Assembly: GCF_030930995.1 (NCBI RefSeq)
Contig: NZ_CP133217.1
Location: 186,001 to 250,000, forward strand
DNA: 64,000 nt
Direction: 5' to 3'
Origin: Thiothrix subterranea
GTDB taxonomy: Bacteria; Pseudomonadota; Gammaproteobacteria; Thiotrichales; Thiotrichaceae
Below are positions 3,889-40,211 of this stretch, in pieces (within the stretch, counting starts at the first letter, position 1; every line of letters starts with the position of its first letter). Position numbers and translations under genes: made by a program. The notes under the pieces were generated by a model. The model was not told the origin of the DNA. It worked only from the letters and a program-made list of their open reading frames with translations, and searched no databases.

Positions 3889-5649
3889 TTACATCCGCTC
3901 CAACACCCCAATCCCCAGCAAACCCAAGCCAGTTTGCAGGGTTTGCGCCGTCAAATTCGCCAACTGCAAACGGCTGTTACGCACGTCCTCCGCCACACCG
4001 TCTTTCAAGATCGGGCAGGCTTCGTAGAAGCTCATGAAGTTACCCGCCAACTCATACAAATACGTGCAAAGATGGTTTGGCAAACCCTCTTTCGCCACGC
4101 TATCCGTCGCTTCGGTGAATTGCAGCAATTTCATCGCCAAGGTGCGTTCAGCGATTTCATGCAGCGAAATGGAGGAGCTAATCGCCTCCGCATCCACGCC
4201 TGCGCGACGGAAAATGCTCTTAATCCGCGCATACGCATACTGCAAATACGGCGCAGTATTGCCCTCGAAACTCAGCATGGTTTCCCAGTTAAAAATATAA
4301 TCCGAGTTGCGGTTTTTGGACAGGTCGGCGTATTTCACCGCGCCAATGCCGACCGTGCGAGCGATGTCATGACGTTCCGCCTCACCCAATTCCGGGTTCT
4401 TAGCGGTAACGAGGGTGAACGCACGTTCTTCCGCCTCCACCAACAAATCCACCAGTTTCACCGTGCCGCCGGTACGGGTTTTGAACGGCTTGCCATCTTC
4501 GCCCTGCATATTGCCGAACGGCATGTGTTCGAGCGCCACGCCTTCGCGCACAAAGCCTGCTTTACGCGCCAACAAAAACACCTGCTGAAAATGCAACGCT
4601 TGGCGGGCATCGGTGAAATACAGGGAACGGTCGATATTCAGCACCCCGCTACGGTAGCGCAATGCAGCAAGGTCAGTGGTCGCATACAAATAGCCGCCGC
4701 CGGTTTTCTGCACAATGATCGGCGTAATGCTGCCGTCTTTGTTTTTGAATTCGTCGAGAAACGCGCATTGTGCGCCCTGATTTTCTACTAGTAAGCCTTG
4801 CGCCTGTAACTCGCTGACAATATTAGCTAAATCGGCGTTGTAGGCACTTTCCGGCATCACATCCGCACGGGTCAGGGAAACACCCAAACGTTCGTAAACC
4901 TCTTCGCAATGGTGCAAGGAAATGTCGATGAATTGCTGCCACAGCGCGTGACATTCTGCATCACCGGCTTGCAGTTTCACCACGTAATCACGCGCCGCAT
5001 CGGCAAAAGCGGGTTCAGCATCGAAACGCTGTTTGGCTTCGCGGTAGAAGGTTTCGAGGTCGGCAAGTTGGGGTGCGACACCGCTCACCCCGCCGTTTTG
5101 CTCGGCAATGCTGACCATGTGCGCGATCAGCATCCCGAATTGTGTACCCCAGTCACCGACGTGGTTTTGGCGAATAACCTTGTGTCCCTGGAATTCGAGG
5201 ACGCGGGCAACGGCATCACCGATGATGGTGGAGCGCAAATGTCCAACGTGCATTTCCTTGGCGAGATTCGGCCCCGAATAATCGACCACGATGGTTTGTG
5301 AAGAGGGCGAATGCCATTCGCCCCTACCATCCCCCGTAGGGGCGAATGGCATTCGCCCTCCCAATGCTTCTGATAACCACTTATTTTTCAAATAGATATT
5401 GATAAAACCGGGGCCTGCAACTTCGAGTTTGTCGGCGAGATCAGACAAATCCAGCACTTCCAACAAGCGCGTTGCCAGTTCTCGCGGGTTGGTTTTCAAC
5501 TGCTTGGCGGCTGCCATCACGCCGTTAGCTTGGTAGTTGCCGAATTCGGGGCGGGCGGAGGGTTTCACAATGGCGGTCACGGTATCAGGTGCGCCGAGTG
5601 TGTGCAGCGCGGCGGTAATGCGGTCATCAAGCAGTTGGCGAATATTCAT
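3889..5649 (-). CDS. argS: Arginyl-tRNA synthetase with an in-frame palindromic insertion
   Basis: Class Ia synthetase charging tRNA-Arg. It has 586 residues with the N-terminal Arg-S domain, the HIGH-type motif HVGH just after PNLAKEM, the KFKTR-type loop [14 protein letters not shown] in place of KMSKS, and the conserved C-terminus LGIGVLERM. Residues about 97-116 (around [14 protein letters not shown]) are encoded by a 58-bp perfect hairpin repeat inserted just before the conserved QTIVVDYS strand. In typical ArgRS this stretch is an unrelated variable linker. The frame is intact across it, so the enzyme is probably functional. As a single essential gene it is unlikely to be dead. Confidence 0.95.
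5303..5360. repeat. Palindromic repeat family A, copy 1, inside argS
   Basis: A 58-bp element with two perfectly complementary 25-base arms (left arm begins GAGGGCGAATGCC, right arm ends GGCATTCGCCCTC) around an 8-base loop CATCCCCC. It lies wholly inside the argS reading frame. A second, diverged copy is at 30876-30937 with the same GAGGGCG ends and CCGTAGGGGCG core. This is a MITE- or REP-like mobile palindrome. Confidence 0.85.
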
Positions 5650-30790: not shown

Positions 30791-31873
30791 CTAATATTCA
30801 AGCTGTTCTCTGTCAAGATTCTGTAACAAACTTTTTGCTGTTTTATCACACTTTTTGTGCTTAAGCGCACCCAAAGAGGGCGTATGCAAGACGTTCCTAC
30901 CCATTCCTACCCGTAGGGGCGTATTGCATACGCCCTCTCCTCTCCCCCAATACGCACGTTGCACGCTAATCATCCGGCAAATACTGGCGGGTAATTGCTG
31001 GTAACGTTTCCCCAAGCGGAAACCCATCAATTTCACGAAGGTCTGCAACGCCGCCAGCGGCAATAACCCTTTCTGGCGCACATATAAATAATGAATCAGC
31101 GAACGCACATACGTACCCGCCTCACGATCGGGCGCACCCACCGCTTGCATCAAGGGCTGTTCCGACGCATGGAATACCCCCACGTCAAAATAACGCCGAA
31201 AAATCTGCACCAACGAATAACGGTGCGAATGTTCCACGGTACTTTCCGCCGAATACACCGTTTTCCACCCCGCCAGCAACAACCGCGCCGCCACATAACT
31301 GTCTTCACTCACAATAATGTGTTCGGGAAAGCCACCGATACTGCGCAACGCACTCGCCCGATACACCGCGTACACATCCGACGCAAACGCCGCCCGATAC
31401 CCCAAGGTTTTGAAACTGTCACGATCACGCACCGAAGACGTTGCCGGATACGTAAACCCCCGCGCATGGCGTTCCAAATGATCCGCATCCGCACGCGGTA
31501 AATGCCGCCCGTACACCATTCCCACCTGGCTATCGTCAGCGGCGTGCTTGAGCAATTGTTCCAGCGAATCCGCTTGTTTGAGGATGGCATCTTGCGTCAA
31601 ATACACCAGAAATTCTGCATCAGGGCATAATTCGGTCGCCAATTGGCGCGTGCCGCCATGACTAAAATCGCGCGGATGAATCCGCTGCACTTCCAAACCT
31701 GCCGCCGCCGCCAGTTCCGCCGTGTGATCTTCTGAGAGCGAATCAATCACCAAATAACGCCCAGCCTGCACGGTTTGGTGCTGAAGCGCCTTAATCCATT
31801 CCGGCCACAAACGCCCCGCATTGCGAGTTAACACGATCACTGCCACATCAGGGCGCTGAATTATTGTTGTCAT
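30791..31873 (-). CDS. Family 2 glycosyltransferase with a repeat-derived C-terminus
   Basis: GT-A fold sugar transferase, 360 residues from the ATG at 31873. VAVIVLTRNAGRLWPEWIKAL begins the Rossmann-like start. The nucleotide-sugar region EFLVYLTQDA and SEDSYVAARLLLAGWK support GT2, rhamnosyltransferase-like. Residues about 313-333 (GVCNTPLRVGMGRNVLHTPS) come from the palindromic repeat at 30876-30937. The next 27 residues run to a stop with no family likeness, so the original C-terminus was probably replaced. It is the last gene of the polysaccharide operon. Confidence 0.82.
   Translation of the reverse strand: MTTIIQRPDVAVIVLTRNAGRLWPEWIKALQHQTVQAGRYLVIDSLSEDHTAELAAAAGLEVQRIHPRDFSHGGTRQLATELCPDAEFLVYLTQDAILKQADSLEQLLKHAADDSQVGMVYGRHLPRADADHLERHARGFTYPATSSVRDRDSFKTLGYRAAFASDVYAVYRASALRSIGGFPEHIIVSEDSYVAARLLLAGWKTVYSAESTVEHSHRYSLVQIFRRYFDVGVFHASEQPLMQAVGAPDREAGTYVRSLIHYLYVRQKGLLPLAALQTFVKLMGFRLGKRYQQLPASICRMISVQRAYWGRGEGVCNTPLRVGMGRNVLHTPSLGALKHKKCDKTAKSLLQNLDREQLEY
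30876..30937. repeat. Palindromic repeat family A, copy 2
   Basis: A 62-bp element with perfect 14-base terminal arms GAGGGCGTATGCAA and TTGCATACGCCCTC, and a core containing CCGTAGGGGCG as in the argS copy. The centre holds a short direct repeat (TTCCTACCCA, TTCCTACCCG). It overlaps the 3' end of the glycosyltransferase gene, in a different frame from the copy in argS. Confidence 0.8.
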
Positions 31874-31889
31874 GGTATCTCCCCTGTTG

Positions 31890-32795
31890 TTATGCAAATA
31901 GCAGCAGCGCCACATTATTCAATACACCCGGTTTGAACAGCCGATGGTGTAAAATATGTTGCCGCCGTTTCCAACCGTGCAAATAGCGTAGCCCCGCCAC
32001 TGCCGTCACCAATTTGAAATCCTCGGCATTCAGCCGCTCGCCAAAACGGTGCAAGAACACTTCCGCTTGTTGGCTCCAACCATCCACCCGTGTACTTAAC
32101 CCGTTGACAGTGGCAGGTTCTGCCCCGATCGCATTCTCATCATGCTGGCGATACAGCAATAAAGGGTGCGGCAATGCCTGTATTTGCCCAAACCACGCAC
32201 ACACCAACGCCAACCAGCGGTCATGCTCCAGCGCATACAATGGCACTGGAAACGCCAACTCTGCTGCGGCGCGATTAAATGCCGTGGCGCACCCTGTCAC
32301 CACATTGTTCAGCAAATACGCCTGCTTGCGCTGCGCCACCTCAAAATCGCGGTAATCCCAAAACGATACCGCTTGTATGGCGCGTGCCTCATCCACCACC
32401 ACCAAATCCGAATGCACCAACAGCGGCGTTGCCTCACCGTACTGCCCTTCCAAACGCCGCAGCGCGGTGTATTGCAGTTCCACCTTTTCGGGAAACCACA
32501 CATCATCCTGATCACAAAACATCAGACACGGCGCGGTGCTGGCTTCCACCAAACGGCTAAAACTCAGCTTGCTCCCCAAATGACTGCCATCCAGCAACAA
32601 ACCCGCCAACTTATCCGGGTGTGCTGCTTGCCACTTCAATAAAATGCGCAACGTTTGGTCGGTCGAGCCATCATCCCGAACCAGCAATTGCCAATCTTGA
32701 AACGTCTGTTTTTCCAGCGAAGCCAATAACTCCGGCAGCCAACGCTCACCGTTCCAGGTGGACAGTAAAATCTGTACCCGTGCGTTATCCATCAT
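31890..32795 (-). CDS. Family 2 glycosyltransferase, rhamnosyltransferase-like
   Basis: A 301-residue GT2 enzyme. VQILLSTWNGERWLPELLASL is the N-terminal strand-helix. The motifs DDGSTDQTL and FCDQDDVWFPEKV (DXD-type metal site) are the characteristic GT2 pair. The LLYRQHDENAIG motif is typical of rhamnosyltransferases in O-antigen loci. It likely adds a sugar to the exported glycan. It overlaps the small upstream gene in a TAATG junction and its neighbour in the operon starts 17 bp later. Confidence 0.85.
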   Translation of the reverse strand: MMDNARVQILLSTWNGERWLPELLASLEKQTFQDWQLLVRDDGSTDQTLRILLKWQAAHPDKLAGLLLDGSHLGSKLSFSRLVEASTAPCLMFCDQDDVWFPEKVELQYTALRRLEGQYGEATPLLVHSDLVVVDEARAIQAVSFWDYRDFEVAQRKQAYLLNNVVTGCATAFNRAAAELAFPVPLYALEHDRWLALVCAWFGQIQALPHPLLLYRQHDENAIGAEPATVNGLSTRVDGWSQQAEVFLHRFGERLNAEDFKLVTAVAGLRYLHGWKRRQHILHHRLFKPGVLNNVALLLFA

Positions 32796-37360: not shown

Positions 37361-38258
37361 TGTTATTGCTCCGTAGCAGAGGCAGTGCAGGCCATAACCA
37401 CCAGTGACCGGGGCTTTCCCGAATCCGCTGTTCCAGTTGACTGGCAAGCTGTTGCATCAATACTGTTTCGTCATAATCATACGGATCCAGTAACGCAGAA
37501 AACTCTGCTCTCACCCGACCCCCGCCCAAATCACGCATAAAGAACGGCGCGATCACTGCCTTGGTTTTTTTTGCAATTCGATAAATACCGGCAGGCAGGT
37601 CAATAGTACCGCTTATAAAATTAACTGTCACCCTTCCTTTATGCGCTTCTATATATGGAACATCAAAAATCAATGCAATTAAGTGATCATTTAATGCCCG
37701 ATAGAGCGGACGCAACTCATCCCCCTCCACCAGAAAGTTGCCGCCCAAGGCTTGCTGCAAGCGCTGCAACTTAAATAAACGGTAACGGTATTCCGCCGGA
37801 TGCAAGCCATGGCTATTGGTAGCACCACCATCGCGGGTAATCGTCCCTGTGGTAAAACCTTGCGCTCGCATCGCAGGTCCTGCCATCCAGAACCGTCCGA
37901 AATGCCCACCCGTCAACATCACCCGCTTCCCCTGTCGCCGCGCCGCTTCAATGGCGGCAAACCCTTCCAGCTCCACAATTTGCTGAATCGGTTGGTGTTG
38001 CAAATACCAGGTATCCAGCGCTTCTTGCTCCACCATGCGGTAATAATCATCAAGCCAGCCCGCGAGCTGGGTGTCACTGGCCTCAGGCAATGCGCTGCAC
38101 ATTTGGGCGCGAATCGACGCCGCCTCATCTGCCTTGTTACGCCGAAAAATCGTCGCCTGTTGCGCCGCCAATCCATAACCTAACACGGGCGGCAAGTGCG
38201 CATACAGCGGAAATAACACCTGATAACGCAGGGAAAAATCAGCCGGTCGCCAACGCAT
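37329..38258 (-). CDS. LpxL/HtrB-like acyltransferase, active-site acid missing
   Basis: A 309-residue member of the lysophospholipid (lipid A) acyltransferase superfamily, membrane associated. The usual HX4(D/E) dyad lies in the block GGHFGRFWMAG; the position of the acidic residue is W here. Later family blocks are retained (DGGATNSHGLHPAEYR, GTIDLPAGIYRIAKKTKAVIAPFFMRD). It is therefore either catalytically altered or uses another acid. In this operon it may modify the polysaccharide carrier or lipid A. It overlaps both neighbours (20 bp with wzt, 32 bp with the methyltransferase). Confidence 0.7.
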   Translation of the reverse strand: MRWRPADFSLRYQVLFPLYAHLPPVLGYGLAAQQATIFRRNKADEAASIRAQMCSALPEASDTQLAGWLDDYYRMVEQEALDTWYLQHQPIQQIVELEGFAAIEAARRQGKRVMLTGGHFGRFWMAGPAMRAQGFTTGTITRDGGATNSHGLHPAEYRYRLFKLQRLQQALGGNFLVEGDELRPLYRALNDHLIALIFDVPYIEAHKGRVTVNFISGTIDLPAGIYRIAKKTKAVIAPFFMRDLGGGRVRAEFSALLDPYDYDETVLMQQLASQLEQRIRESPGHWWLWPALPLLRSNNNDSGDSSLAG

Positions 38259-39438
38259 AGCTCACCTTTTCCCAACGGTGCGGCAACATCACCATGCCAA
38301 CACCTTGCTGTTGCCCCGCTTGTTGTACCCGAAAATGGCAGCACCGTTCCCGCGAATCGTAGACATGTACCCCACTGCCATCAATCAGCCACACTTCCAA
38401 ACAATAATCACCCGACAACAAGGGCAAGCGCTCAATCACAAATTCTGCCGCGACGATACCATCCGCCAGCGGCTGCATTTGCACCCCATCGTGTAAGGTA
38501 CTGATGCCGTAACATTGCACCTCATCATTGCGCCGAATCACAATCCCCACATGCACATCAGCAAGCGGACGGTCGCCTTGGCTGGCTTGAATACTGAGGC
38601 GGAACGGATCGTGGGTTTGAAAAGTGTCTTGGTTCAGTGTGACAGCGAGTAAAGAAACCCCTCCTAACCTCCCCTTGTCAGGGGAGGGACAAGATTGGGA
38701 GGGGTTTCTTCCTCTCACACTATCCTGATACGCATCCACCACCGTTTGCGCATCCCCCAACATCCGCACCCTGCCCTGCTCCAGCCACACCGCCTGACGG
38801 CACATTTCCCGCACCTGATACAAATTGTGCGAACAGAACACCAAGGTCGCACCCTTCCCCAAAATCGCCCGCATCCGATCCAAGGATTTTTTCTGAAAAT
38901 ATTGATCGCCCACCGACAAGGCTTCATCCACGATCAGCACTGCTGGTTCAATCACCGCCGCTACCGCAAACACCAAGCGCACCACCATGCCGCTCGAATA
39001 CGTTTTCACCGGCTGTTGCGCAAACTCACCCAATTCCGCAAACGCCAATACTTCTGGCAATTTCGCCGCAATCTCCGCCTGACTCAGCCCACGCAATGCC
39101 AAACCCAACCGCGCATTGTCCACCCCGCTAAACTCTGGCTGCAAACCTGTACCCAACTCCAGCAACGCCGAACGCCTGCCGCGAATTTCACACTGACCTT
39201 CCGTCGGCGGCAAATTACCCGCCAGCATTTTCAGAAACGTGCTTTTGCCCGCGCCATTATCGCCCACAACCCCCAGTGAATCGCCCGCTTGCACCTGCAA
39301 ACTCACCCCTTGCAAGGCATAAAACGGCACATGACGTGGACGCCGCAACACCCATTCCAACAAGGCATCACGCGGATGCGCATAACGCCGATACGCCACC
39401 CCCGCCACCGTCAACCGAATCGCCCAATCGGTACTCAC
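38239..39438 (-). CDS. wzt: Polysaccharide export ABC transporter ATPase, Wzt type
   Basis: Nucleotide-binding subunit of an ABC-2 exporter for O-antigen or capsule, with a C-terminal glycan-binding domain. I set the start at a GTG at 39438, where the wzm stop overlaps as GTGA; an ATG at 39483 would overlap wzm by 49 bp. From the GTG the protein has 399 residues: Walker A GDNGAGKST near residue 56, signature YSSGM, Walker B VLIVDEALSVGD. A 59-bp palindrome (38652-38710) then encodes residues about 243-263 (SCPSPDKGRLGGVS) exactly in the linker, followed by a Wzt C-terminal β-sandwich domain of about 130 residues. Confidence 0.87.
   Translation of the reverse strand: MSTDWAIRLTVAGVAYRRYAHPRDALLEWVLRRPRHVPFYALQGVSLQVQAGDSLGVVGDNGAGKSTFLKMLAGNLPPTEGQCEIRGRRSALLELGTGLQPEFSGVDNARLGLALRGLSQAEIAAKLPEVLAFAELGEFAQQPVKTYSSGMVVRLVFAVAAVIEPAVLIVDEALSVGDQYFQKKSLDRMRAILGKGATLVFCSHNLYQVREMCRQAVWLEQGRVRMLGDAQTVVDAYQDSVRGRNPSQSCPSPDKGRLGGVSLLAVTLNQDTFQTHDPFRLSIQASQGDRPLADVHVGIVIRRNDEVQCYGISTLHDGVQMQPLADGIVAAEFVIERLPLLSGDYCLEVWLIDGSGVHVYDSRERCCHFRVQQAGQQQGVGMVMLPHRWEKVSYALATG
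38652..38710. repeat. Palindromic repeat family B, full copy, inside wzt
   Basis: Outer arms AAGAAACCCCTCC and GGAGGGGTTTCTT (13 bp each) enclose an inner hairpin CTCCCCT-TGTC-AGGGGAG. It is in frame between the ATPase and the C-terminal glycan-binding domain of Wzt. A shorter relative lies at 35644-35683. Confidence 0.85.
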
Positions 39439-40211
39439 AGCACATACCTCGCCCGCAACAGCAAGTGCTGAAACAGCCACCACCCCAACGCCAGACTAGC
39501 GCTTGCCAGCAGCAATAATCCGACAAAGGCTTCCCACAAAAAGCGCCCTTCCAGCAATGCCGCACGATAACCTTCCACCAATTGCGCCAACGGATTCCAC
39601 GCAAACCATGCCTGAAAAGCTTCCGGCACCACGCTCAACGGGTACACAATCGGCGATACCAGCAGCAACACGGTCAATAACGGTGGCATCATCTGCCGTA
39701 AATCGCGCAAAAACACCCCCAACACCGCCAAACCATACGCAAATGCCAGCGAAAACAGCAGCCGCACCCCCAAAAATGGCAGGTAAAACACCACACTCAA
39801 CGGCTCCAAACGCCCCTGCACCAGCAACCACAACAGCAACAAACCCACCGACAACCCTTCCAATACCAACGAAACGCCCACCGGCAACAGTGGCAATACC
39901 GCTGGCGGCAACGGCGAATTCAACAATAAATCCCGCCGTTCAATTAAAAGCGCAGGCGCACGGGTTAACACCTCTGCCAAGGCATTAAACGCGGTTAAAC
40001 CCGCTAATAACCATGCCGCAAACTGTGCTGAATCGGTGTCTGTTCCCAAGCGTATTTGCAAAATCTCACCGAATACCCATGCGTAAATCACCAACATAAA
40101 CAACGGCGGTATTAATAACCAAAACACCCCCAATGCTGTGCCAACATAACGCTCACGCAATTCCTGACAAAACAACTGCCAAAGCAATGCTGGGGCAATG
40201 GCTTTATTCAT
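39435..40211 (-). CDS. wzm: Polysaccharide export ABC transporter permease, Wzm type
   Basis: ABC-2 family integral membrane subunit, 258 residues with six predicted helices. The N-terminal amphipathic helix and family blocks PALLWQLFCQELRERYVGTALGVFWLLIPPLFMLV and LLNSPLPPAVLPLLPVGVSLV match Wzm. The C-terminus carries the polar turn YGLAVLGVFLRDLRQMMPPLLTVLLLVSPIVYP. It pairs with Wzt (stop/start overlap) to move a lipid-linked glycan across the inner membrane. It overlaps the peptidyl-prolyl isomerase gene by 8 bp. Confidence 0.88.
   Translation of the reverse strand: MNKAIAPALLWQLFCQELRERYVGTALGVFWLLIPPLFMLVIYAWVFGEILQIRLGTDTDSAQFAAWLLAGLTAFNALAEVLTRAPALLIERRDLLLNSPLPPAVLPLLPVGVSLVLEGLSVGLLLLWLLVQGRLEPLSVVFYLPFLGVRLLFSLAFAYGLAVLGVFLRDLRQMMPPLLTVLLLVSPIVYPLSVVPEAFQAWFAWNPLAQLVEGYRAALLEGRFLWEAFVGLLLLASASLALGWWLFQHLLLRARYVL

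Follow-up and report, generated by a model that had tools for sequence, protein, structure and literature searches.

A REPIN in the interdomain linker of Thiothrix argS, a site where palindromic elements have turned over across the genus

REPs that carry a GTAG tag are known from inside genes as well as between them. Di Nocera (2013, PMC3733652) described intragenic GTAG REPs, their dimers and REPtrons, inserts in tRNA synthetase genes included, and two Xanthomonas recB genes with different REPs at about the same site; RPE-4 and RPE-6 are classed there as CGTC REPs. The REP of S. maltophilia is 23 nt long with an 8-bp perfect stem and a 3-nt loop, and its transposase cuts the REP in vitro (Corneloup 2021, PMC8266576). 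REPINs have been treated together with the RAYT (TnpA-REP) transposases by Bertels and Rainey (2011, PMC3116915). The palindromic elements of Rickettsia lose the identity of their repeats over time, and a repeat-conversion mechanism has been proposed for the palindromes in Nematomorpha mitochondria (both PMC6649704). We compare with these elements a locus in Thiothrix subterranea (genome G000, 4,407,357 bases), starting from a window of 64,000 nt, the whole stretch of DNA that was analysed; its features are collected in Table 1.

A tail-to-tail REP doublet in the argS linker

The original prediction was of a perfect 58-bp palindrome lying in frame in argS, and a comparison of the arms bears it out: 5303-5327 and 5336-5360, 25 nt each, are 100% complementary and stand 8 nt apart. 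The frame of this essential gene stays open through the palindrome, also as predicted, and its 586-residue product matches TIGR00456 with 564.1 bits (cut-off 261.65); the nearest named argS is that of Thiothrix fructosivorans (89%). Read outward from the loop, each arm is GTAG GGGCGAAT GGC ATTCGCCC, so that GTAG stands at one foot of a short stem-loop with an 8-bp perfect stem and a 3-nt loop. Since there is a smaller palindrome within each arm and the GTAG tails point inward, the object is a REPIN, two inverted 23-nt GTAG-tagged REPs set tail-to-tail and in frame within coding sequence. The RNA structure to which the prediction had also pointed is a very stable hairpin (-57.4 kcal/mol, z -8.91; none of 200 shuffles folded as well). 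The 23-nt half unit occurs at 3 places in the window with up to three mismatches, where 0.00 are expected from 100 shuffles, and these two sets of shuffles rule out a chance origin.

Table 1. Features of the window (positions are those of the 64,000-nt stretch)
Feature	Position	Strand	Basis or remark
argS, arginine--tRNA ligase, host gene	3889..5649	-	ORF, TIGR00456, single match in genome
REPIN, perfect 58-bp palindrome, ArgS residues 97-116	5303..5360	-	coil in model
REP unit 1, GTAGGGGCGAATGGCATTCGCCC	5305..5327	-	unit search of window
8-nt spacer between GTAG tails, GGGGGATG on coding strand	5328..5335	.	
REP unit 2, sequence as unit 1, opposite orientation	5336..5358	+	unit search of window
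GTAGGGGC REP, TAT core	30913..30935	+	near C-terminal end of glycosyltransferase frame 30791-31915, minus
Other-family palindrome CCTCCCC...GGGGAGG (CCTCCCCTTGTCAGGGGAGG)	38668..38687	+	in frame in ABC-transporter-like ATPase (named by eye) 38239-39483, minus

The REPIN sits between the N-terminal domain of ArgS (PF03485, 7-87) and the catalytic domain (PF00750, from 112). In an AlphaFold2 model with a mean pLDDT of 90.1, residues 98-118 form a coil between helix 89-97 and strand 119-123, and residues 101-110 are the lowest block (mean pLDDT 55). The stretch from PGFIN to DYS counts 46 residues here versus 36 in G003, a congener free of the element; most parsed linkers outside the genus have 41, versus 45 in the same counting for the type seen here (L143, with an identical linker). 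The element had been said to add about 20 residues, and the palindrome does code for about that many. It was not, however, simply added to an empty site in argS: the palindrome has displaced most of the native linker, which is only about 4 residues longer here than in most outgroups.

The unit is one of many in the genome. Thirty places lie within three mismatches of the argS unit and 55 have the form GTAGGGGCG-N9-CGCC, with 0 in the reversed control and 0 in the control for the form; with one mismatch allowed, the latter search gives 67 places against 22 in its control. The predominant core classes are TAT-TGC-ATA, ACC-GGC-GGT and, though rare, the AAT-GGC-ATT of argS, and intermediate cores such as TATGGCATA and AATGGCATA occur. 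Among the G000 loci examined, 21 of 23 doublets are tail-to-tail with a short spacer, and both units belong to one core class in 20 of the 23 (9.2 when shuffled). Eleven of 36 unit clusters are inside open frames that have a family match (argS, tmcA twice, nasC, mfd, and genes for VWA, glycosyltransferase, nitroreductase, GH2, XdhC and DEAD/ASCH proteins), the others being intergenic or in frames of uncertain standing. The unit adjoining the TAT-core REP of the window looks degenerate, whereas the doublet is intact in a similar G002 frame (L198). A second coding palindrome of the window, of the CCTCCCC...GGGGAGG family, follows the ATPase part of a 414-aa frame. In a further frame, 737-2914 of locus L016 (726 aa, no Pfam match), a CCTCCCC-type stretch (TPPDLPLSGEE) accompanies a GTAG REP doublet, both of them in frame.

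Turnover at argS and other coding sites

An argS gene is present in all 16 genomes of the genus, with no stop within the match, and in 15 of them the linker holds a palindromic element of one of four sequence types. REPs of the GTAGGGGC type are found in 7 genomes, as an AAT doublet (G000, G013), a TAT doublet (G002), an ACC doublet (G011) or a single TAT unit (G005, G006, G014). The GTAGGTCGGGCTTCAGCCCGAC type occupies the site in 2 genomes (G004, G009), and its core occurs up to 12 times per genome. In 4 genomes (G007, G008, G010, G012) the site holds the CCTCCCC...GGGGAGG type, which is found at 2 to 64 places per genome; the copy in G010 is broken and contains N bases. The remaining type, CTTCGGCTC/GAGCGAAG, is seen in 2 genomes (G001, G015), and the CTTCGGCTC core has one further place among the G000 loci examined. 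Only the linker of G003, a long outlying branch, shows no palindromic element among the 16. Two genomes have two argS matches each, G001 (L154, L158) with the same linker element in both and G010 (L156, L159) with undetermined bases in both linkers.

The relatives do not all carry the same insert and the unit recurs elsewhere in the genome, and so the original prediction survives both the comparison of congeners and the genome search. A tree was built from those codons of argS, mfd and tmcA that lie clear of gaps; support is good for 8 of its 13 inner branches and weak for 4, and G003 is a long row. The minimum number of type changes at the argS site on this tree is 6, rising to 8 when cores and copy number are treated separately, the types having been assigned by eye and then used as labels in the counting. 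Palindromes in the linkers were scored at 72 loci, namely 54 of the 80 argS relatives (4 of them Thiothrix) and 18 argS loci of the genus; 16 linkers were not parsed by motifs, 7 from the relatives and 9 from the genus, the latter being read otherwise. The score separates doublets clearly (25). Single units score 8, as does the linker of the outgroup L077, in whose gene 3 of 37 control stretches did as well. No palindromic elements were seen in the 43 of 76 non-Thiothrix loci read, which is not a strong test of their absence outside the genus.

Judged by alignment, the linkers in mfd, tmcA and nasC (names that rest on NCBIfam matches of partial proteins, under the curated cut-offs) behave like that of argS, with clean empty sites in mfd and nasC. 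In Mfd, 14 of the 16 genomes were read (G003 and G010 left out): 7 have GTAGGGGC REPs, 5 other palindromic elements and 2 (G005, G009) an empty site. At the first TmcA site, read in all 16, there are GTAGGGGC REPs in 7, GTAGGTCGG doublets in 3 and other palindromes in 4, with no element evident in G003 and G010; the reading of the second site leaves out G003. Seven aligned tmcA rows have one TGA within the alignment, and the linker stretches compared contain no stop. Of 13 NasC loci 8 were read, 4 with a REP doublet (G000, G002, G013, G015) and 4 with a clean empty site, 24 residues shorter (G004, G005, G006, G014).

The original prediction offered recent insertion as one cause of the perfect arms, and the sister genome G013 rules this out: the argS element there is identical, while the two genes differ at 136 of 1775 bases (7.7%) outside the REP units. 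Between the same genomes mfd and nasC each differ by 6.5% outside the units, with 0 differences within the units at argS (46 bases), mfd (46) and the nasC frame (92, which we read as also covering a doublet that lies before the start but within the open frame, L196); at tmcA the units differ at 4 of 46. There is also no difference in 46 bases in four mfd pairs, in nasC of G015 and G002 and in tmcA of G005 and G006, and the argS unit of G005 and G006 differs at 2 of 23. This comparison of 13 pairs leans towards conservation in that units were located in the first sequence only and required to be intact there, and two of the pairs set different cores side by side (argS of G000 with G002, 6/46, and with G011, 8/46). 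Stems unchanged while the genes have diverged by 6.5-7.7% indicate elements that are old and have been kept, be it by conversion, correction or selection.

Core change, RAYT genes and the origin of the turnover

Our results are probably best explained by selfish elements that are spread by RAYT transposases and tolerated in flexible linkers, with turnover continuing. Doublets of this sort are attributed to RAYT (TnpA-REP) transposases; RAYT activity would have placed the REPIN in argS, and lineages in which the insertion broke the gene would have been lost. The element may survive because the linker tolerates almost any sequence and the unit is open in five of six frames, and it would be selfish rather than useful to ArgS; the coil linker of lowest pLDDT counts in favour of such a tolerated insert. 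A linker already occupied by an element could then act as a dock: conversion between copies, or cutting and transfer by the RAYT, would later exchange the stem cores or the complete element without a change of site. Counting against this explanation is the rarity of the AAT core. The exact unit is present in 3 of 63 genomes of the family, with 3 copies in G000, 3 in G013 and 4 in G011; in G000 and G013 the copies stand in argS and tmcA alone, so no large pool is visible that could correct the argS copy.

A simpler account dispenses with any switching of cores: permissive linkers would lose an element and receive a fresh one at nearly the same spot, and spacers that look kept would reflect the consensus of REPIN interiors. 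At argS the spacers are indeed close to the common family spacers, and 2 or 13 of 378 background pairs are as close as the argS pairs, so that argS by itself is no proof of core switching; at tmcA the doublet spacers of G005, G006 and G008 are unrelated, from which it follows that re-insertion also occurs or cannot be told apart; and unrelated families reach the same sites. We nevertheless regard this account as unlikely because of what is seen at nasC and tmcA. In G000 and G013 the cores of the nasC doublet are ACC and ACT, and in G002 and G015 they are TAT, yet the spacers of the two groups, GGAGATTCACG and GAATATTCACG, are closer than 372 of the 378 background pairs (6 being as close) and than all 31 of similar length. 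Between the tmcA doublets of G013 (AAT) and G014 (TAT) a single one of the 14 spacer bases differs, a closeness reached by 1 of 378 background pairs, and the doublet of G000 is a hybrid of one AAT and one TAT unit whose spacer is, with one difference, the reverse complement of the G013 spacer. We infer that, at nasC and in the tmcA group of G000, G013 and G014 at the least, an inherited doublet had its units replaced singly. Cores thus seem to have been swapped in place with the spacer kept, the mechanism of switching being a proposal.

The genus does contain candidate enzymes. NF047646 matches are present in 13 of 16 genomes, over the cut-off in 3, some of the weaker ones being IS200-like. 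Sixteen of the 30 loci were read, and REP-type units surround the gene in 10 of these (L161, L166-L171, L176, L177, L182). Eight of the ten are longer frames with GTAGGGGC-type repeats (L166-L171, L177, L182), and 5 of the 8 have an in-frame REP just after an MPNHxHxIV stretch, which we take to be the HUH motif. In L166, L170 and L177 the in-frame unit matches the flanking core exactly, and in L167 and L169 it is one base off; the frames of L171 and L182 look decayed after the stretch, and L168 gives no clear reading. L168 belongs to G003, the genome without an argS element, and has on both sides a long array of 26-nt GTAGGGGC repeats with other cores. The only Y1_Tnp match in G000 that passes the cut-off (L031) is bordered by other hairpins, and its locus contains no GTAGGGGC unit, which excludes reading the argS unit as an IS200/IS605 end.

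In G004, G005 and G011 the argS element shares its type with the REPs around a local RAYT, which counts in favour of the preferred explanation; the cognate repeats are TAT in G005 and ACCGGCGGT in G011. The argS state has no such match in G000, G013, G015 and G003, which counts against it. The RAYTs of G000 have GGTTCGCGAACC and ACCGGCTGGT cores, and among the loci read no RAYT was seen with the AAT core of argS. One bolder proposal, which we consider rather unlikely, is that a resident RAYT rewrites REPs in place, unit by unit, to the core that it recognises, leaving site, spacer and frame unchanged; the REP within the RAYT frame would then be an address by which enzyme and repeats stay matched.

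Correction of the palindromes alone, by template switching between the arms during replication, strikes us as improbable. It would keep the stems of old insertions perfect and have core mutations arise stepwise and be copied from arm to arm with neither donor nor transposase, in keeping with the identical cores of many doublets (16 of 23 in G000, 12 of 12 in G002) and with the intermediate cores noted above. It should not, however, slow change between species, yet several sites show 0/46, and for TAT and ACC the new cores belong to classes that the genome also has at other places. That the hairpin is a regulatory RNA structure selected for argS expression is very improbable in spite of its stability as RNA and of stems more conserved than the gene, because the argS REP unit also lies in unrelated genes and between genes, the argS sites of congeners have short, unrelated or no palindromes, and the sole Rfam match (RmaA, 25.9 bits against a gathering score of 57) is below threshold and rules out a known Rfam RNA.

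Comparison with described systems

As intragenic GTAG REPs are already in print (PMC3733652), the kind of element is known. Our literature search, which left most subscription papers outside its coverage, found no account of Thiothrix REPs, of genus-wide turnover at coding sites, of core change with the spacer kept or of a REP in a RAYT frame. The comparison of turnover at shared coding sites in 16 genomes appears to go further than what has been described. Coding sites are clean recorders of REP spread in which the host genes are not broken: since frame and flanks fix the position of each element, an alignment reveals its insertion or loss, a change of core or an inverted spacer. Five sites (argS, mfd, two in tmcA, nasC) in up to 16 genomes, with filled, switched, hybrid and empty states, make REP turnover testable. 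They also suggest that interdomain linkers of essential enzymes may be rewritten repeatedly by selfish DNA.

The likeness to the Rickettsia elements that had been proposed holds for the mode, an in-frame palindrome within a gene for a working protein, here in a gammaproteobacterium, but not for the family. The argS element is a GTAG REP doublet with no CGTC or GACG within 5303-5360, which excludes it from the RPEs; RAYT genes are present in the genus, and the stems are kept perfect (compare PMC3733652 and PMC6649704). With the Nematomorpha mitochondrial palindromes it shares perfect inverted repeats kept in coding sequence, whereas those, as described in PMC6649704, are not dispersed copies of one family with a transposase and belong to another compartment. 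The closest described systems are the GTAG REPs and REPINs, with which the Thiothrix elements have in common the GTAG tag, inverted doublets and copies inside genes, those for tRNA synthetases included, and for some cores (TAT in G005, ACCGGCGGT in G011) a RAYT flanked by the repeat; the argS unit has the same architecture as the S. maltophilia REP (PMC8266576), down to its length, stem and loop. Compared with the GTAG REPs described so far in the sources cited, the Thiothrix elements add several families at shared coding sites throughout a genus, cores that change with the spacers kept and REPs within the RAYT frame; the Xanthomonas recB pair (PMC3733652) is a partial precedent.
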